Part shown: one piece after another, positions 21,212 to 30,243 of the stretch
Layout of the letters: each line of letters opens with the position of its first letter
How positions within the stretch are numbered: position 1 is the first letter of the stretch
Origin: Streptomyces sp. NBC_00285
GTDB lineage: Bacteria > Actinomycetota > Actinomycetes > Streptomycetales > Streptomycetaceae
Length of the DNA: 64,000 nt
Direction: 5' to 3'
Assembly: GCF_036174265.1 (NCBI RefSeq)
Contig: NZ_CP108055.1
Coordinates: 1,922,001-1,986,000 of the forward strand
Made by a program: the position numbers and the translations under genes
The notes under the pieces: generated by a model
The model's input: the letters and a program-made list of their open reading frames with translations, nothing else
Databases searched by the model: none
What the model was told of the DNA's origin: nothing

Positions 21212-21641
21212 GGCCTCCCCCAGCTCGACCCCCGTCGGCCGGGGGTACACATGTACGTCAACAAACGGCGCGAGCCTACTACTGACGCACACGTAACTCG
21301 AAGTTCCATCCGGAACACTAACTTCCGCACCAGCACCGGGACATGTGGAGGTGTCCGGCCATTGCGGGAGATTGCCTCCTGTGATGAGGCAGTCCATGTC
21401 GCACCGGAACCGATCGACCAGGGCCATTGATTGGCTGGATTTTTTCGTTTTTTTGACGTTGCGAGGGAATCTTGTAGGGGTTCTGTACGTAGTTCTCTTC
21501 GGGAAATGGCGGTGGATTCGGCCACAGGAGCCGCATCTGCAACTGGGCGGCGTAAAGCAGCGCAAGCCGGGCAGCCACCTTGAAGCCCGGTTCACGGGCA
21601 TCGGGGCAAGGGATCTGCCGGCGGTGGGGAGTGACACGGTG
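21212..21641. other. 430-bp divergent intergenic region
   Basis: This separates cvnA from a divergent membrane-protein gene. It includes the most AT-rich patch in the region (about 21425-21515, with TTTTTTCGTTTTTTTGACG), which probably holds promoters for one or both genes. TTGACG at 21455-21460 could be a plus-strand -35. The long open frames crossing it do not look coding. Confidence 0.45.
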
Positions 21642-22181
21642 ATGGGCACGGCGGCACGACAGGAGGCGCCGGAAGACGGCGCGGGTACGGCGCGTTCGAG
21701 GGTACCCAGGCGTCGCGAGGCGCCGGTTCACGGTGTTCCGGCAGCGACGGACAGGCCAATGAGGCGCGATGCGGTCCGGGAGGAGTCGTACCGGCCATTG
21801 TGGGTCGAGGAGCCCGCGCGCAGGCGCCGGCTGCCGGACCCGGTGCGGACCTCCGCGGTGCGGGCGGTGATCATCATCGCCGTGACCCTGCTTCAGGCGA
21901 TGGTGGCCTTCCTGTGCACGCTGGCCGGTTCCTGGCTGGCGTTCCCGATGGTGGTGAGCAGCGTGGCCAGCACCGTGGTGGCCACCTGGGGCGCGCTGGA
22001 CGTGTGGGTGACCCGCCAGGTGTGGAACCAGCGGCACGGCGTGGTGTCGACCCCCAGCAGCACGGCGCGCGCGCTGCGGCGCGAGCGGCGCAAGGCCCGG
22101 CGGCAGGTGCGGGCCACCGAGCGGACCCAGGAGCGGATACGGCGCCAGGGCGGCGGCACGGGGCAGTTGTCGCACCCCTGA
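21642..22181 (+). CDS. small membrane protein with two transmembrane segments
   Basis: About 179 aa. A disordered, charged N-terminus is followed by two closely spaced membrane segments (VIIIAVTLLQAMVAFLCTLA and WLAFPMVVSSVASTVVATWG) and a basic C-terminal tail (ALRRERRKARRQVR). The start is uncertain: ATG 21642, GTG 21639, or ATG 21759, which would begin MRRDAVREESYRPL. No family name can be given. It is convergent with the SMC-like operon and divergent from the conservon. Confidence 0.7.
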   Translation: MGTAARQEAPEDGAGTARSRVPRRREAPVHGVPAATDRPMRRDAVREESYRPLWVEEPARRRRLPDPVRTSAVRAVIIIAVTLLQAMVAFLCTLAGSWLAFPMVVSSVASTVVATWGALDVWVTRQVWNQRHGVVSTPSSTARALRRERRKARRQVRATERTQERIRRQGGGTGQLSHP

Positions 22182-22251: not shown

Positions 22252-25200
22252 TTACGGAGTGACAGGAGCGACGGGTGCCGGGCGTTTGAACATGCGGGTC
22301 GCCGTGATCTCGCTGTGTCCCACCTCGCCCGCCTGGGGCTGTTGAGGCAGGCCCGGGCGGAGGTGTTCCTCCACGCTGATGTATTTCAGGCCGGCCCTGA
22401 GGTCCGCGTCGTTCCGCAGCCGGATGACCAGGGGGAACTCCGCGAGTGCCGTCGTGTCGAACAGGCCGGTGGTGTAGAGGAGCTGGACGCCCAGGGCGTC
22501 CGAGACCGCACGCTGGAGCTCCAGCAGATACGTCGCGTTGGCGCGCCCGATCGGGTTGTCCAGGAACAGCGTGCCGGCGTGCCGGTGCTTGTCCCTGCCC
22601 CGGTCGTTGGAACGCAGAGCGGCCATCGTGCAGTACAGGGCAATGGCCGCGGTGAGCAACTGGCCGCCGGAGAACACGTCGCCCATCTGCCCGACGGGCA
22701 CGCGCTCCGCACGCAGCACGGCGTCGGGCTTGAGGATCTCGACGGCCACGCCCTTGGGCTGGAGCGCGGCCGCAACTCCCCGCAACAGCAGGGACATCCC
22801 GTCGCGCCGCAGGTCGGAGTTCTTCTTCACGGCTGCCCGCGTCGCCTCGTCGACGACCTCGCCGAGCCGCTCGGTCAGCGTGGCCTGGTCGGGTTCCTCG
22901 AAGCGGATCCGCAGGAACTCCTGCCCGGACCACTCCCCCAGCCCCTCGGGCAGCCGGGACAGCCGCTGGGCGGACCTGAGCGTGGCGAGGGCGGACTCCA
23001 CGAGCCCCCGCAGCCGGTCCACGATCGAGTCCCGGTTCCGCTCCAGCTGCACCAACTCGTCGGTCAGCACCCGCAGTCGGGGCGCGAAGGCGTCCGCCCA
23101 CTTCTGCGCGTGCTCGGGCAGCGCGGACGCGGGCAGCTCCCGGATCTGCTGACGTGCGGGGGTACGGACCTGCTCGTAGCGCGTGGAGTTCGCGTGCCGG
23201 ACGAGCACGTCGCTCGCCTCGCGGACGGCGGACTCGGCGGCGGAGAGGTCGGCGGCGCAGCCGCGCAGCGAGCGGCGGGCGTCGGCGGCGGACTGCCGGG
23301 CCTCCTCGGGGCTGCCCGGGTAGGGCTCCGGCTCCTCCTGGTCCTCCTCCGCACCGTGCTCGCGCAGCAGGTCGCGGAGCATCGCGGCGATCTCGTCGAA
23401 ACCGCTCGCCGCGTCCTCGGCGGCCCGGTGGGAGCCGAGCAGTTCCGCGTGCGCCTGCCCGGCCTGGGCCAAAGACTCGGTGCGGGACGCCAGTTCGGCG
23501 GTGGCCGTGCGCAGCAGCGCCTGCGCGTGCTCGGCGTCGCGGGGCTCCGACTCGTCCGGCAGCTCGGTGTGCACCTCGCCGTCCTCGGGCGCGAGCCGCT
23601 CGGTCTCGCCGCGCAGCCGGCCGAGCTGCTCGCTCGCGGTCGACATGCGGGCCTCCAGGAGCTGAACCAACTCCTCCGCCCGGGCGGCGGCGGCCTGCCG
23701 GGAGGGCCCGTCGGAGCCCTCGGTGGACTGGAGAAGCTGCTCCGCGCGTGTGCGGACCTTGTTGCTCAGCCGGTCCAGCTCGGCCAGGGACCCGCTCTCG
23801 TCGCTCTCCGCGCGGGCCTGCTCGGCCCGCAGATCGGCGTCGACGCCCACCTTCTCGTACAGCTGAGAGGCGGCCCGGTAGGCCTCGCGGAGCGCGGGCA
23901 GGGACGCCCTGGACGGATCCGTCTCACTGTCCGGTACGTCGTCGGGGGCGCCCGCGATCTCGGCGCGCTCGGCACGCAGCGCACGGGCGGTGCGGCGGGC
24001 GTCGTCGGCTGCGCGCTGGGCACCGCGCCGGTCCTCGTCGGCGGCGCGGGCGCGCTCCAGACAGGTCTGGGCGCGGGCCTCCGACTCGCCTGCCTCGTCG
24101 GCGAGTTCGCGCAGCTTGACCTGCCAGCCGGCCCGCTCGCGCAGCCGGAAGGCGAGCCCTGCCAGGGCGTCGGCGGCACGCCGGGTCTTCTGAGCGGCCT
24201 CCTGCCGCTCGTCGCGCATCCGGGCGGCTTCGCCGGCGACCTCGTCGGCCTCGGCACGCACGGCGCGCGCCTCGGTCAGCTCGGCCTCCGCCTCCTCGGC
24301 GAACACGCGCGTGTCGTGGGCGGTCCGGGCCAGCTCGACGAGCCGGCCGGCCGGACAGCCGGTGCGCCAGGAGGCGAGCCGGGCGGTCAGCTCGCGGTCC
24401 TTGCCGAGCCGGGAAGCGAGCGACCGGATCTCCTCGTCGCGCTCACCCGCCCGCGCCCGCAGCGCCTGGCGTTCCTCGTCGGCGGCGTGCTCGTCGTGCA
24501 TGGCCGGGTTCGGCGGTACGAGGAAGACGTCCGTGCTGGGTGAATCGGTCGCCGGAGTCGGCGCGAGCAGCGCGGCGGCCGTACCGACGGCGACGGCCGA
24601 CCGTGGGAGCAGTGCCGCGTCGTTCAAGGCCTCGCGGGCACGAGCGTGTGTGGCGGGGTCGGTGATGATCACGCCGTCGACCAGTTCGGGCCGCGCGGCC
24701 AGCACACGCGCGTGGTCCGCGGGGTCGACGGCCTGGGCGAGATAGCGCCAGCCGGGCAGCGCGGGGATGCCGTTCTCGCCGAGGAACTCGACGGTGGCCA
24801 GTACGTCCGGCCCCGGAGGCAGCAGCCCGCCGTCACCGAGCGCGCCGAGGATCCGCGCATCGTCGGCGGCGGTCGTACGCAGCTCGAACAGCTGGCGTTC
24901 GGCGGAGGAGACGGAGCCGTCGAGCAGTTCACGGAGTTCGTCGGCGAAGCGGTCGAGGTCCTCGGGGGTGAGCGTCCCGTCGTCGGCCGAACCTCCGTAC
25001 GGGTCCGCGTCGGCCTTCTTCGCTCCCGTGGCCCCCGCGCGCGGCCCCGGCACTCCCCCGCGGGACCCGGTCAGGCTCAGCAGCTCCGCGAGCCGCTCCT
25101 CGCCCGCCAGGCCCTCGGCGAGTCGGCGTTCGGCCTCGTAGGACCGCTCGGCCGCCGTGGCCGCGTCCTCCGCGCGAGCTGCTGTGAGCTCCGCGCGGGA

Positions 25201-26910
25201 CTCGGTGGAGGCGGCCTCGCGCGCATGCTCGGCGGCCCGGCTCGACGCCTCGCGGGCAGTGTCCCAAGCGGCCACCGCTGTCTTCTCGGCGTCGCTCGCG
25301 GCGAGGGCGGCGCGGGCGGGGTCGGCGTCGGGTGCGGTGTCGTCGAGCCAGCCCGCGCGGACCGCCTCCGCGGTTTCCTGCTCGACCTCGCTCAGACGCT
25401 GGCGCAGGTGTCCGACCTCGCTGCGGGCGCGCTGTGCCTCGGTGGCGGCAGAGGTGGCGTCCCGGTGGGCCGACTCGCCGACCTCCTGGAGGGCGGCGGA
25501 CCGCTCCTCCCCTTCGTTGGCGAGGTTCTCCGCGCCCTCGGCGGCCGTGTGCAGGGCCCGGACCAGATCGGCGGCGGCCTTGGTGCGGGCGGCGAGCGCG
25601 GGGGCCGCGTCCCGCTCGGCCACCTGGATGGCGGCGGCCACGCGCGTGACTCGGTCGGCGGCGGCCCGGTGGCGCAGTACGGTCTCGGCGGCCTGCCAGG
25701 CGGAGTGCAGGGTGCGCGCCTCGGCGAGCTCGCGCTTCTGGGCGGCGGCCGACTTCTCGGCGGCAGCGAGCGCCAGGGAGGCGTGCCGGTAGGCGAGTTC
25801 GGCGGCGATCAGCGCACTGCGCTCGCGGCCCGCCTCGGCGTGGGTGACGGCGTACGCGGCGGCGGTGACCCGCTGGGCCAGGTCTCCGGCCCGCACGCGC
25901 TCCTGGACGCCCCGCGCGGACAGCCGTCGGGCCAGCGCACGCGTACGGCGTTCGGCGCCCGTGTGGATGTCACGTGCGCGTGAGCGTGCCTCGGCGGCCT
26001 CGACGATCCGCCCCAGCAGATCCGCCGAGCCGGCGGTGAAGTCCCGTTCGGCGATCAGTTCGGCGCGCCGACCCAGTTTGTTGCCGAAACCGCCGACCAG
26101 GTCGGCGAGTCCGTCGGTGTCTCGGGTGTCGGTGACGGCCCGCAGCAGCAGATCGGTGAAGTCGGAGTCCTTCTTCACCGCGAAGAGGCCGGCGGCCTCA
26201 CCCTCGTCGGCGTTCATCTCCCGCTGGTAGCGGAAGAGTTCCGGGTCCAGGCCGAGCTCGCCCAGGTGCTCGATCCACCGGTCGTGGATCTCCTCCCAGT
26301 GCGCCTCCAGGTGCGGATATGCCTTGCCCGACTCGGTGATGGCGTCCCGGAAACCCTTCATGGTGCGACGGCGGCCCTGCGCGGCCGACTGGCCCTCGGC
26401 GGGCCGGCGTACGCCCGTGGACTCGGCGACGGGCAGGTTGTCGAGGCTGAGTCCCGGACCGGGACGGAACGAGTACCAGGCCTCGGCGAACTTCCGTGGG
26501 TCGTTGGAGACCTGGCGCCCCCGCCACTCGCTCACCTTGCCGACGACGACGCACTCGCCGGTGAGGGTGTGCTGCCACTCCAGGGCCACATGCCCGCAGT
26601 CGTCGGCGAGCAGGAACTTCCTGAGCACGCCGGAGCTGGCGCCGCCGAGGGTGTTCCGGTGGCCGGGCAGCATCACCGAGAAGATCAGTTTGAGCAGGAC
26701 GGACTTGCCGCCGCCGTTCTCCAGGAAGAGCACTCCGGCCGGTGCGGGCCGGCGCGGCGGGCCGACGGGTTCGTCCTCGAAGAACTCCGCCTGGGTGGGC
26801 GCGGGGTCGGGCACGACGGCGCCCACACCCCGCAGGTCGAGCACGGTGTCGGCGTAGCGCGCACCGGCGGGACCGATGGAGTAGAGGCGGACCCTGGACA
26901 GTTCGTACAT
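22252..26910 (-). CDS. giant SMC-like coiled-coil ATPase (MukB/MksB-like)
   Basis: 1552 aa. The N-terminus has a Walker A, LENGGGKSVLLKL, at about residue 70. A very long Ala/Glu/Arg-rich coiled coil with a hinge-like break follows. The C-terminus has an ABC signature, DVFSGGQLLTAAIAL, and Walker B TLFLDNPIG. The residue after the Walker B Asp is Asn where the catalytic Glu normally sits. Size and architecture match MukB/MksB/JetC rather than canonical SMC. It is the last gene of a three-gene operon with 31- and 37-bp gaps. A chromosome-organising or plasmid-restricting role is inferred only. Confidence 0.85.
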   Translation of the reverse strand: MYELSRVRLYSIGPAGARYADTVLDLRGVGAVVPDPAPTQAEFFEDEPVGPPRRPAPAGVLFLENGGGKSVLLKLIFSVMLPGHRNTLGGASSGVLRKFLLADDCGHVALEWQHTLTGECVVVGKVSEWRGRQVSNDPRKFAEAWYSFRPGPGLSLDNLPVAESTGVRRPAEGQSAAQGRRRTMKGFRDAITESGKAYPHLEAHWEEIHDRWIEHLGELGLDPELFRYQREMNADEGEAAGLFAVKKDSDFTDLLLRAVTDTRDTDGLADLVGGFGNKLGRRAELIAERDFTAGSADLLGRIVEAAEARSRARDIHTGAERRTRALARRLSARGVQERVRAGDLAQRVTAAAYAVTHAEAGRERSALIAAELAYRHASLALAAAEKSAAAQKRELAEARTLHSAWQAAETVLRHRAAADRVTRVAAAIQVAERDAAPALAARTKAAADLVRALHTAAEGAENLANEGEERSAALQEVGESAHRDATSAATEAQRARSEVGHLRQRLSEVEQETAEAVRAGWLDDTAPDADPARAALAASDAEKTAVAAWDTAREASSRAAEHAREAASTESRAELTAARAEDAATAAERSYEAERRLAEGLAGEERLAELLSLTGSRGGVPGPRAGATGAKKADADPYGGSADDGTLTPEDLDRFADELRELLDGSVSSAERQLFELRTTAADDARILGALGDGGLLPPGPDVLATVEFLGENGIPALPGWRYLAQAVDPADHARVLAARPELVDGVIITDPATHARAREALNDAALLPRSAVAVGTAAALLAPTPATDSPSTDVFLVPPNPAMHDEHAADEERQALRARAGERDEEIRSLASRLGKDRELTARLASWRTGCPAGRLVELARTAHDTRVFAEEAEAELTEARAVRAEADEVAGEAARMRDERQEAAQKTRRAADALAGLAFRLRERAGWQVKLRELADEAGESEARAQTCLERARAADEDRRGAQRAADDARRTARALRAERAEIAGAPDDVPDSETDPSRASLPALREAYRAASQLYEKVGVDADLRAEQARAESDESGSLAELDRLSNKVRTRAEQLLQSTEGSDGPSRQAAAARAEELVQLLEARMSTASEQLGRLRGETERLAPEDGEVHTELPDESEPRDAEHAQALLRTATAELASRTESLAQAGQAHAELLGSHRAAEDAASGFDEIAAMLRDLLREHGAEEDQEEPEPYPGSPEEARQSAADARRSLRGCAADLSAAESAVREASDVLVRHANSTRYEQVRTPARQQIRELPASALPEHAQKWADAFAPRLRVLTDELVQLERNRDSIVDRLRGLVESALATLRSAQRLSRLPEGLGEWSGQEFLRIRFEEPDQATLTERLGEVVDEATRAAVKKNSDLRRDGMSLLLRGVAAALQPKGVAVEILKPDAVLRAERVPVGQMGDVFSGGQLLTAAIALYCTMAALRSNDRGRDKHRHAGTLFLDNPIGRANATYLLELQRAVSDALGVQLLYTTGLFDTTALAEFPLVIRLRNDADLRAGLKYISVEEHLRPGLPQQPQAGEVGHSEITATRMFKRPAPVAPVTP

Positions 26911-26947
26911 GGCGGACTCTCGTAAGTCTTCGGCAGATCGGGAAGGT

Positions 26948-27826
26948 TCAGGAGTGGAACGGCAGACCGGCATCGGCCGCCAGTTCCAGGTCGTCTGCGT
27001 CTGCGGCGGGCAGCAGCGTCGGCGTGCCGTCGGTGACCGGGACGACACCCAGTTCGAGGAGTTCGGCCATGGCGGCGCTGCCGGCCGTGTCGCGCACCTG
27101 GAGCTGGTAACGAGCCGTGGTCCGGTAGGTACCGCCGTTGTCGTCCCCGGTCCGCTGGAGGAACCCGGAGTCGGTGAGGAAGGCGGCGGCCTTGCCCACG
27201 ATGCCGGTCGTGGACCCGGCGAGCCGGCGCGCGTCCTTGGTCGCTCCGGCCGCGCTGCGTCTCGCCCAGATCCGCCAGGCCGCCTCGAGGCCGGGCGCGT
27301 CGGTGACCGGGTCGGTGTTCTCGCCGACCTCCTCGGCCCGCTCCTCCAGGCGCCGGCATGCCTGGCGTACGAAGGCGTCGACGCCGTTGACCGAGACACG
27401 CCCGATGTATCCGTCGTCGGCCAGGTCCTCGGGCCGCGGGAACGCCATGGCGGCGACGGCGAGATGGGCCAGTCCGTGCAGGAACCGGTCGCCGCCGTCC
27501 GCTGACGTGCGCCGCGCGTAGTCCCCCATCCGGACGGCGAACACGGAGTCCTCGGCGGCGGTCACGGCCATCCCCGCGCGCGGGGACACTTCGAGGACCA
27601 CCAGGCCGAGTCCGGCGGCGACGGCGTCGGCGAGCCGCGCGAACGGCGGATCCTCCCGGTAGCGCCGCAGCAGGTCGGCGTACTCCTGGTCACGCGCGGG
27701 CTGCAGCTTGGGCTGCAGCCCGAAGGCGACGAGCCGAGCGGCGTCGGCGGCATCGGCGGGGGTGACGGCGGCGGGCGCCGGCGGGGTCGGGGCCTCCGCG
27801 TCGCTCCACTCGACTTGCTCACTCAC
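26948..27826 (-). CDS. MksE-like partner of the SMC-like ATPase (hypothetical)
   Basis: 292 aa, GTG start at 27826 with AAGGAG eight bases upstream. The N-terminal 30 residues are Pro/Ala-rich. The rest looks like an alpha/beta, winged-helix-rich protein (for example AAAFLTDSGFLQRTGDDNGG then TYRTTARYQLQVRD). No direct sequence signature identifies it. Size, gene order and winged-helix character suggest an MksE/JetB-like subunit that bridges kleisin and ATPase. It begins right after a 12-codon relay ORF. Confidence 0.6.
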   Translation of the reverse strand: MSEQVEWSDAEAPTPPAPAAVTPADAADAARLVAFGLQPKLQPARDQEYADLLRRYREDPPFARLADAVAAGLGLVVLEVSPRAGMAVTAAEDSVFAVRMGDYARRTSADGGDRFLHGLAHLAVAAMAFPRPEDLADDGYIGRVSVNGVDAFVRQACRRLEERAEEVGENTDPVTDAPGLEAAWRIWARRSAAGATKDARRLAGSTTGIVGKAAAFLTDSGFLQRTGDDNGGTYRTTARYQLQVRDTAGSAAMAELLELGVVPVTDGTPTLLPAADADDLELAADAGLPFHS

Positions 27827-27861
27827 GGCTTGGGCTCCTTGTCACGCTCGTGCTCACTCAT
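27823..27861 (-). CDS. 12-codon relay mini-ORF between the first two genes of the SMC-like operon
   Basis: ATG at 27861 overlaps the stop codon of the upstream gene (ATGA), and its own TGA overlaps the GTG start of the downstream gene (GTGA). The peptide would be MSEHERDKEPKP. The Shine-Dalgarno of the downstream gene (AAGGAG) lies inside it. The arrangement is ideal for ribosomes to pass from one gene to the next. The peptide itself probably has no function. Confidence 0.45.
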   Translation of the reverse strand: MSEHERDKEPKP

Positions 27862-29387
27862 GCTGCGTCCCTCCGGTCCGCCGCCATCCCCGCGGCGTCC
27901 AGCAGGGCCGTGCCGACGATGAAGTCGGCGCCACCGAAGTCCGGATCGTCCAGTTCCGTCCCGTCGTCCACCGCGAAGAGCAGCTTCTGCTCGCCCTGCC
28001 GGTAGGCGGTTCCGACGGCGGGGCTGGCCGCGTGGACCGCCAACAGGGCCACCAGATACGCCAGGTCGAAGCCACCGGTGCGGCGAGCCTCCACCAGCAG
28101 GCCCGAGAGTCGTCGTGGTGCGTCCGCCGGCAGGTCCAGCAACTCCTTCGCGATCGCGAGCTGTTCCTCGCTGAACCGGCTGTCGTCCGGCGTGGCGATG
28201 AGGTCCGGTTCCGGCATCTCCGCGCCCAGGTGCTCGCGCTCCATCGGGGGCGTCAGCAGTATGTCGACGAGATCGCCCACTCTTACCGCCACCGGGGTCC
28301 GCAGCCCGGTCCCGCGCGCGAAGAACGCGTCGGTGACGCGGGTGGCCTGCTCCAACGGGAGCGGCAGCACCGGCGCGACGAGGTGGCCGTACAGGTCTAT
28401 CCCCGATGTCGTCATCGGTGTGGCGAAGGCCTGGCGGTCCTGTTCGGCACGGAACAGGGGCCCGGCCTCGAGGAGCCTGGACTGGAGTTGGGTGTGGCGC
28501 CGGATGCAGTCCTTGACGATGTCGACGAGCTCGGCGGCCCGCCGCTTCTGCTCGGGGTCCTCCGACTCGTCCCGTGCCTTGCGGATGTTGGTGAGGATCG
28601 CGTTCTCGTGGCGGTACCGGTCGGCGACGTGATCGAGGGCCTCGGCGATCATGTCGGGTACGGAGTTGAGCCAGTCGACGGCCCGGACATTGCGCCTGGT
28701 CGCGTCCAGCGCCCTGCGCAGGGTCTCGGAGTACTGCACGGTCCGGTACCGCGCCTGCTCGGCGGCGAGTTGGGCGTCGGCGAGGCGTCCGCGGCTGATC
28801 AGCACCTCCAGCTTGACCTCGGCGGCGATCTGGGCGCTGGTGACATCGGTGTCGAGGGCGCCGACGAGAACGTTGACCGCCTCGTCCGTCGTCCGGAGAT
28901 ACACCGAGCCGCCGGGGCCGGGCACCTCCTCGATCAACTTGAAGTCGTAGTCGCGCCGGACATAGGTACCGTCCGGCGCGAAGGTGCCGTACACCGCCCG
29001 GAAACCGCGGTCGACGCTGCCGACGTTGATCAGGTTCTCCAGGACCCAGCGGGCCACCCGCTCGTGCTCGGCGACGGGCCGCTGCGGGGCCTGGGCGGCG
29101 ATGCGCGGGATGAGGCGGGCCACGACCTGGTCGTGGTCGGCGCCCGTGTCGAAGTCCATGTTCAGTGTGACCAGGTCGATGCCGGAGAGGGCCACCTCCG
29201 CCATGCCGTACACCGAGTACTCACCCGCGAGGTTCGCCTTGCGCACGTCCAGGTCGTGCAGCGGCGCGGTGCATGCGAGGGCGCGCAGCCGACGCGCCAG
29301 TCCCTCGTCGGCGGCCGGGCCCGGTGCGGGGCGCGGCCCCGCGCTGAACTGGGGCGGAACGCTGTCCGTCGATGCAGGCGAAGTCAC
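27858..29387 (-). CDS. MksF/kleisin-like partner of the SMC-like ATPase (hypothetical)
   Basis: 509 aa, first gene of the operon. The N-terminal half reads as a helical, winged-helix-like domain (HERVARWVLENLINVG), followed by a helical stretch (LEVLISRGRLADAQLAAEQA, then RYRTVQYSETLRRALDAT) resembling the middle region of MukF/MksF kleisins. The GTG at 29387 is chosen because no Shine-Dalgarno is present and a -10 lies one helical step upstream, giving a nearly leaderless mRNA. An ATG at 29432 is the alternative. Kleisin assignment rests on size, order and helical pattern, not on a recognised motif. Confidence 0.6.
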   Translation of the reverse strand: MTSPASTDSVPPQFSAGPRPAPGPAADEGLARRLRALACTAPLHDLDVRKANLAGEYSVYGMAEVALSGIDLVTLNMDFDTGADHDQVVARLIPRIAAQAPQRPVAEHERVARWVLENLINVGSVDRGFRAVYGTFAPDGTYVRRDYDFKLIEEVPGPGGSVYLRTTDEAVNVLVGALDTDVTSAQIAAEVKLEVLISRGRLADAQLAAEQARYRTVQYSETLRRALDATRRNVRAVDWLNSVPDMIAEALDHVADRYRHENAILTNIRKARDESEDPEQKRRAAELVDIVKDCIRRHTQLQSRLLEAGPLFRAEQDRQAFATPMTTSGIDLYGHLVAPVLPLPLEQATRVTDAFFARGTGLRTPVAVRVGDLVDILLTPPMEREHLGAEMPEPDLIATPDDSRFSEEQLAIAKELLDLPADAPRRLSGLLVEARRTGGFDLAYLVALLAVHAASPAVGTAYRQGEQKLLFAVDDGTELDDPDFGGADFIVGTALLDAAGMAADRRDAA

Positions 29388-29394
29388 GGTGCAC

Positions 29395-29400
29395 AGACTA
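29395..29400 (-). promoter_or_regulatory. -10 element of the SMC-like operon
   Basis: On the minus strand the hexamer TAGTCT fits TANNNT. It places the transcription start at about 29388, one base before the GTG start codon. A -35 match is not obvious. Confidence 0.5.
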
Positions 29401-29547
29401 GGTCCTCGGTCTGACAACTCCCCAAACGGCACGGATCGCCCCCGGCGGTCGGACGGGGCACGACCGGTTGCGACACGTCTGCGGCAGGTCTCACGCCCGC
29501 ACGGCGGAGTCGCACATGGGACACGGCCCCGCGCCCCCAGGTGTCCC

Positions 29548-30243
29548 CTAGGTCTCCTCGCCGACCCTTCGCCTGTACACCTCGACCACTCGCTCCAAGG
29601 AGTCAGCGAGGTACACGGCGAGCAGCCGCTCCGCCTCTTCCCGGTCGCCCGCCTGAAGCGCTCCGAGGATCTGCTGGTTGCGAGCCAGGTAGGGCTCGTG
29701 GAGGGCCTTGGGGTCGTCCACCACGTGGAAGGCCAGGCGGAGTTCGGCGAAGACGCTGCGCATCAGTTCGTCGGTGCGGTCGCTGGCCGCGAGGGCGACG
29801 AGTTCCCGGTGGAAGTGGATGTTGGCCGTCCCCAGCGCTTTCCAGTCGCCTTCGCGCACCGCCCGCTGCCCCTCCACGACCGCCTCGGCAAGGGCGTCCA
29901 GGGCATACGGAGGCTCGCCCAGCCCACGGACGACCGCGCATTCCACGAGGGCGCGGGTCCGGTAGATGTCCTCGACGTCCTCGACCGCCAGGACCCGGAC
30001 GAACACGCCCCGGTTCAGCTCGTGGACGAGCAGTCGCTCATGCGTGAGCAGCCGGAACGCCTCGCGCAGGGTGTTGCGGGAGACCCCGAGCGCGCCCCCG
30101 ATGCTGTCCTCCGACAGCCGGGTGCCGGGCGGGAAGTAGCCCTCCGCGATGCGGCTTCTGAGGATGTCCGAGACCCGCTCGGCCGTGCTGGTACGGCCCA
30201 GGAGGGCGCGGTCGTCGGCCAGTGGGCTCAGCTGCTCTGCCAT
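29548..30243 (-). CDS. GntR-family regulator (FadR/FCD type), probable regulator of the pxp operon
   Basis: 231 aa. An N-terminal winged helix (STAERVSDILRSRIAEGYFP, then LSEDSIGGALGVSRNTLREA) is followed by an all-helical FCD ligand-binding domain, with metal-site-like histidines in NIHFHRELV and RLAFHVV. It is divergent from the MFS/hydro-lyase/pxpABC operon, with 131 bp between the starts and a 19-bp palindrome in that gap. It is therefore probably a repressor or sensor for 5-oxoproline or a related metabolite. Confidence 0.9.
   Translation of the reverse strand: MAEQLSPLADDRALLGRTSTAERVSDILRSRIAEGYFPPGTRLSEDSIGGALGVSRNTLREAFRLLTHERLLVHELNRGVFVRVLAVEDVEDIYRTRALVECAVVRGLGEPPYALDALAEAVVEGQRAVREGDWKALGTANIHFHRELVALAASDRTDELMRSVFAELRLAFHVVDDPKALHEPYLARNQQILGALQAGDREEAERLLAVYLADSLERVVEVYRRRVGEET

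Follow-up and report, generated by a model that had tools for sequence, protein, structure and literature searches.

Wadjet systems join a structural maintenance of chromosomes (SMC) motor, JetABC, to a nuclease, JetD. In the available parts of one account, JetABC is pictured as a motor that extrudes DNA loops, with JetD as the enzyme that cleaves circular plasmids; the same text proposes that MksBEF originated from Wadjet by loss of JetD (PMC10586767). Wadjet is enriched in Actinobacteria, and the available text of that survey does not set JetD-less loci apart (Georjon et al. 2023; PMC10482375). The condensin studied in Streptomyces is SMC-ScpAB, according to the accessible text of a 2026 smc-deletion paper, which contains no mention of Wadjet (PMC13121528). 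Here we describe an operon in a 64,000-nucleotide stretch of the Streptomyces sp. NBC_00285 genome (contig NZ_CP108055.1, positions 1,922,001 to 1,986,000; hereafter, the window), which encodes a JetA-like kleisin, a JetB-like KITE protein and a JetC-like SMC ATPase. This operon, together with its close relatives across the Streptomycetaceae (the "core" operon), is a JetD-less, fixed form of Wadjet type III and not an unknown SMC family.

Family membership was evident from both profiles and predicted structures. JetC matched the PADLOC JetC3 profile (PDLC00588) with 1391.5 bits and JetA the JetA3 profile (PDLC00567) with 613.4 bits; the structure model of JetA resembled the kleisin MukF, while that of JetB resembled the KITE proteins JetB and MukE (by VIA-align). 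None of the three proteins yielded anything over cut-off against Pfam and NCBIfam. As JetC had no NCBIfam match at E ≤ 1, TIGR02168 (SMC_prok_B) included, it is not a canonical SMC; the genome's canonical SMC is encoded elsewhere (TIGR02168, 932.7 bits). Searches of Protein Data Bank sequences, using JetC and profiles of JetA and JetB, gave no Jet or Muk match, and only the folds revealed the likeness.

An earlier description made from the letters of this DNA (the sequence-only reading) had proposed three open reading frames (ORFs) with the sizes and order of a tight operon, nucleotide-binding motifs in the largest product, and kleisin and MksE-like partners. The operon lies on the minus strand with intergenic gaps of 31 and 37 bp, and the two structure models agree with the proposed partners. 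The GC content of third codon positions is approximately 0.9 for the JetC and JetA ORFs, and codon-position GC backs both as coding. The motifs are LENGGGKS (Walker A), FSGGQ (signature) and LFLDNPIG (Walker B), and all three were present in 29 of 29 core loci in a six-frame check. The statement that Streptomyces already has SMC-ScpAB held for SMC, the component searched for. Overall, a nuclease-free kleisin-KITE-SMC operon that may form an extra condensin-like complex beside SMC withstood analysis, and the label of an undescribed system, matched by nothing known, did not: both JetC and JetA fit profiles of Wadjet type III, and JetD-bearing homologues exist in the same genus. Of the tasks that the sequence-only reading suggested (sporulation nucleoid folding, mobile-element control or conjugation), none is singled out by the present results.

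The absence of a linked JetD/MksG nuclease, also claimed by the sequence-only reading, was upheld at two scales: (i) among the 12 neighboring ORFs (10071-33351, one of them probably spurious), neither the JetD profiles nor Pfam gave a JetD match, and (ii) in the whole genome, the best match to PF09983 (JetD_C) had an E-value of 1.45, with none passing, and JetD3 (PDLC00594) had no match at E ≤ 10. We then tallied JetD across related loci with trimmed queries, scoring a JetD match anywhere in a locus as presence and requiring at least 2.5 kb past JetC to score absence. Of 29 Streptomycetaceae core loci fetched, 26 lacked JetD, none had it and three were not assessable. The corresponding figures (JetD absent, present, not assessable) were 0, 14 and 1 for 15 accessory copies in Streptomyces, 10, 3 and 9 for 22 loci of family f18, 16, 3 and 1 for 20 loci of family f43, and 66, 4 and 10 for 80 named loci; the f43 and named sets partly overlap, and the single f3 locus was not assessable. 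Family f43 is Pseudonocardiaceae, with Prauserella isguenensis and P. shujinwangii. Weak JetD matches at 8 of 23 core loci were rejected, because the JetD ORF concerned had been drawn too long and they fell within its upstream portion, which shares DNA with JetC in a different frame; none was left after trimming.

The distribution of the core operon was surveyed with JetA alone, in sampled genomes at least 90% complete (at least 80% for the f43 survey). JetA was found in 148 of 150 Streptomyces genomes, in one of them as a partial copy owing to a run of N; the two assemblies without it, in 1140 and 1040 contigs, gave no match in a second search either. An order-level survey, whose sample overlaps with the first, detected JetA in 280 of 280 Streptomycetaceae (275 Streptomyces and 5 from four other genera); outside the family, 12 of 13 genomes had none and one had a distant relative (E 1.5e-47). 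Among the core matches shown from the Streptomyces survey, identity to the window copy was 80-97%, and JetB and JetC adjoined JetA in 23 of 23 core loci. The core jetABC genes are under purifying selection, the mean ratio of nonsynonymous to synonymous substitution rates (dN/dS) across nine close loci being 0.085 for JetA, 0.133 for JetB and 0.130 for JetC. Core-type JetA (at least 60% identity) was on none of the 72,556 plasmids searched, and distant JetA (at most 52%) was on five. One of the latter, a linear 77-kb Rhodococcus plasmid (L244, NZ_CP070616.1), carries a JetA homologue of 51.7% identity within a row of four genes, the last of which is annotated as JetD; because linear DNA escapes Wadjet, as stated in the available parts of the source (PMC10586767), the system would spare such a plasmid itself.

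A different form of the locus is scattered through the same genus. Further JetA copies, of 26-53% identity, occurred in 12 of the 150 Streptomyces genomes, a 13th (G125) giving a short, weak match only. In all 12 genomes the accessory JetA was accompanied by JetB, JetC and then JetD behind JetC; three of these JetD proteins, checked with PADLOC, scored 317-389 bits against JetD3, and the strong JetD3 matches in the genus came from exactly the 12 genomes with accessory JetABC. Two of the 12 strong matches (G055 and G088) contain one TGA within the match, located either in the interior of the gene or at its end. No JetD3 match at E ≤ 1e-3 was found in 128 of the 150 genomes, and ten weak matches were rejected as JetD3, four being clear type I and six weaker JetD1/2-like proteins. 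In eight of the 12 two-form genomes, pairwise JetA identity averaged 88.0% (minimum 84.4%) for the core copies versus 39.1% for the accessory ones. One genus, then, holds a patchy defense form with a nuclease and a near-universal form without one. In two genomes (G087 and G148), a one-contig chromosome has equal-scoring accessory JetA copies close to each of its ends, which are therefore apparently in terminal inverted repeats; JetD is placed likewise in G148, and G087 has one JetD match that is shorter than the other.

JetD-less operons occur also in Pseudonocardiaceae and in a second family, f18. In a class-level survey, 63 of 393 genomes matched JetA3 at E ≤ 1e-10 (44 Streptomyces, 18 f18 and 1 f43). 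The JetA tree places the Streptomycetaceae core and the f18 core each in one clade with full support, leaving their mutual relation unresolved. In a tree of JetA, JetB and JetC combined (a quick tree, no bootstrap), JetD-less and JetD-bearing copies are interleaved, and the supported branches require at least four changes. A single clade of all JetD-less copies is unsupported in the combined tree and unresolved in that of JetA.

In 12 of 20 Pseudonocardiaceae loci, JetC is followed at a distance of 0.2-5.8 kb by gap, together with pgk and tpi if the locus extends far enough, and gap was in the flank of 31 of the 80 named loci; among the 12, only L136 has JetD, between JetC and gap. The locus of Amycolatopsis rifamycinica (L156) aligns collinearly with those of six congeners (92-93%) until about 60 bp before JetC stops, continues with a JetD-bearing segment of approximately 1.08 kb, and is then collinear again (81-88%). 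This segment, which includes the last JetC codons, corresponds to only 14-36 bp between the matched blocks of the congeners and is thus either there as a whole or missing as a whole. Between L136 and L156, JetD is 5.77 times as distant as JetA and JetB, the largest ratio among 152 pairs (median 1.19); this hints that the two acquired JetD separately and weakens the proposal that JetD at these loci is simply ancestral. In Pseudonocardiaceae, JetD thus comes and goes at a single position, which is exactly defined for L156 and indicated by gene context for L136. In a distant family, Cellulomonas timonensis (L190) has JetABC, with a JetA 65% identical to that of the query, L128; the 4.7 kb that follow JetC contain no JetD.

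We also compared the JetC proteins themselves. In the motif table, Walker B reads DNP in the core loci, as it does for 15 of 16 JetCs from JetD-bearing loci, the 16th (L073) giving no pattern match; being common to both forms, DNP is a family trait. In other SMCs, Walker B has DE. Judged from the motif, ATP hydrolysis by a JetC with LDNP must employ another residue or differ. Core JetCs from seven Streptomycetaceae are 1516-1632 aa long versus 1481-1499 aa in five JetD-bearing loci; as two JetD-less Pseudonocardiaceae JetCs are likewise short (1480 and 1488 aa), length is not tied to JetD loss. Five of the seven Streptomycetaceae core JetCs have a low-complexity, variable insert at residues ~615-660, beside the presumed hinge; it is nearly gone in L028 and L123, and absent both from the JetD-bearing JetCs compared and from the JetD-less ones of Pseudonocardiaceae.

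Near-universal, conserved and free of JetD, the core JetABC is best read as a chromosome-acting motor. We consider it probable that this core operon of the Streptomycetaceae, presumably of vertical descent, supplies the JetABC motor of Wadjet III, without JetD, to the cell's own chromosome as an MksBEF-like second condensin beside SMC. JetC, JetA and JetB would together make up an ATP-driven extruder of DNA loops of the Wadjet/MukBEF kind, as homology and the structure models suggest. The complex would be unable to cut plasmids in the known manner, because JetD is absent from the operon and, by profile search, from this genome; by analogy with the MksBEF of Pseudomonas aeruginosa, it may instead work on the chromosome alongside SMC. 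The available parts of the Wadjet account state that the total extrusion model implies JetABC action on the chromosome as well (PMC10586767). All this suggests a defense machine turned into a house-keeping chromosome machine.

Several points weigh against this interpretation. Of 33 Streptomyces genomes in one contig, 27 have the operon within the outer fifth of the record and 4 within the outer tenth (sizes partly rounded), and the outer chromosome region is not typical for house-keeping genes. Streptomyces Wadjet, too, is mostly found towards the chromosome ends, according to the available text of Georjon et al. (2023; PMC10482375). Outside the Streptomycetaceae, JetA is not universal, occurring in 18 of 29 f18 and 20 of 60 f43 genomes. 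With DNP in place of DE, the ATPase behavior of JetC is not to be taken for granted, and extrusion by a type III JetABC is a prediction from homology and modelled folds. Finally, JetD was sought by sequence, and an unrelated nuclease could have taken its place.

A wider version of the second-condensin reading is possible rather than probable, and we put it forward tentatively: the Wadjet III motor may have become a permanent second chromosome-folding machine of the Streptomycetaceae, with the same switch in Pseudonocardiaceae and a further actinobacterial family, and JetD may be a plug-in nuclease that is lost and re-acquired at a fixed spot behind JetC, so that defense and house-keeping forms interconvert.

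The principal alternative, which we judge unlikely but deserving of serious attention, is that JetABC still controls mobile elements without cutting, trapping or compacting small circular DNA (plasmids or excised integrative elements) and thereby silencing it or blocking its transfer, as proposed for Smc5/6 with viral circles. The anti-plasmid origin of the family and the location of most copies in the outer fifth of the chromosome are in keeping with this idea, and Smc5/6 compacts circular DNA and prevents viral gene expression, as described in the available parts of the source (PMC10586767); however, defense genes are usually patchy and fast-evolving, like the 12 accessory JetABCD copies, whereas the core operon is near-universal and conserved. 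It is improbable that the operon is a Wadjet whose JetD, or another nuclease, is encoded elsewhere in the genome. JetD is cleanly present or absent behind otherwise similar JetABC, and the 10 of 150 genomes with weak JetD3 matches (type I or other JetD1/2-like proteins) could be cited in favor of such action in trans; yet this genome has no JetD, the 128 genomes noted above have no JetD3 match (other nucleases were not searched for), and in the 12 genomes with a strong JetD it stands behind the accessory JetC. There is a similarly slim chance of a specialized role other than bulk folding, for instance in repairing DNA, in segregation within hyphae or spores, or at the ends of linear chromosomes: the lineages carrying the operon (Streptomycetaceae and genera of the Pseudonocardiaceae, Amycolatopsis among them) are for the most part mycelial, but JetABC with no JetD in the flank is found also in C. 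timonensis, which is not. That the operon is a decaying Wadjet remnant without present function, as its missing effector might imply, is very improbable and close to refuted by purifying selection (dN/dS 0.085-0.133), with intact ATPase motifs in all 29 core loci and JetA in all 280 Streptomycetaceae.

Table 1. Features of the core operon, its surroundings and the Pseudonocardiaceae loci (window coordinates unless a locus is named).
Feature	Position or locus	Strand or placement	Remarks
JetA-like kleisin	27858-29387	minus	509 aa; longest ORF begins 15 codons further upstream
JetB-like KITE (winged-helix) protein	26948-27826	minus	292 aa
JetC-like SMC ATPase	22252-26910	minus	1552 aa; N-terminus MYELSRV
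Promoter-like block TTGTCAGACCGAGGACCTAGTCT	29388-29428	minus	abuts JetA start; -10-like TANTCT 7 nt ahead of start codon
GntR/FCD regulator gene	29548-30243	upstream of jetA	Pfam scan
Convergent ORF behind JetC	21345-22181	plus	without Pfam match
gap-pgk-tpi behind JetC	L111, L127-L129, L131, L133-L136, L138, L139, L143		Pseudonocardiaceae
JetD ORF of A. rifamycinica	L156, 16704-17786		360 aa; overlaps last 59 bp of JetC; PF09983 22.4 bits (cut-off 22)

The block TTGTCAGACCGAGGACCTAGTCT was recognizable, with some bases changed, in 14 of 14 aligned Streptomyces loci, and sequence farther upstream was without conservation. To judge from its sequence, it is possibly a leaderless promoter, perhaps with an operator; the short distance between its -10-like motif and the start codon is what makes a leaderless jetA transcript possible. 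At the other end of the operon (Table 1), the short convergent ORF recurred close to JetC at 17 of the 23 core loci, and part of its product resembles, by eye, a small membrane protein. Beyond it lie genes for an NIT/HATPase sensor, a Roadblock protein, a DUF742 protein and an ATP-binding protein (Pfam), a set that we take to be a cvn-type conservon.

If the Streptomycetaceae do possess a second near-universal SMC motor, Streptomyces Hi-C maps, smc phenotypes and spore segregation would need re-reading. The idea that defense SMCs gave rise to chromosome SMCs, put forward for MukBEF and MksBEF in the available parts of the Wadjet account (PMC10586767), becomes testable, because nuclease-bearing and nuclease-free forms are found side by side in a single genus, and in Pseudonocardiaceae JetD is variably present at one position. 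A type III, actinobacterial, family-wide JetD-less case was not found in print in a search of open-licence PMC papers, with subscription papers and preprints outside its range.

Among described systems, Wadjet type III (JetABCD) shares with the core operon the JetA and JetC profile matches, the gene order of the same-genus JetABCD homologues and the predicted kleisin and KITE folds; it differs in that the core operon is without jetD, near-universal and chromosomal, whereas the JetABCD copies are patchy. The idea of a JetD-less, Wadjet-derived condensin is already known from P. aeruginosa, whose MksBEF, a condensin without MksG that stands beside the canonical SMC, is likewise a nuclease-less kleisin-KITE-SMC operon related to Wadjet. 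Presumably MksBEF is not type III by sequence; the Streptomyces operon belongs to another Wadjet branch, in Actinomycetota, and is near-universal in its family. The MksBEFG/EptABCD systems of Corynebacterium and Mycobacterium also comprise an actinobacterial kleisin, KITE protein and SMC; in the available parts of the sources they retain MksG/JetD and act on plasmids (PMC10123090, PMC12287153), and the Corynebacterium glutamicum system is called type I (PMC12287153). SMC-ScpAB of Streptomyces, whose SMC is encoded in the same genome, is comparable as a chromosomal SMC motor, and differs in being built on a canonical SMC, which JetC is not.

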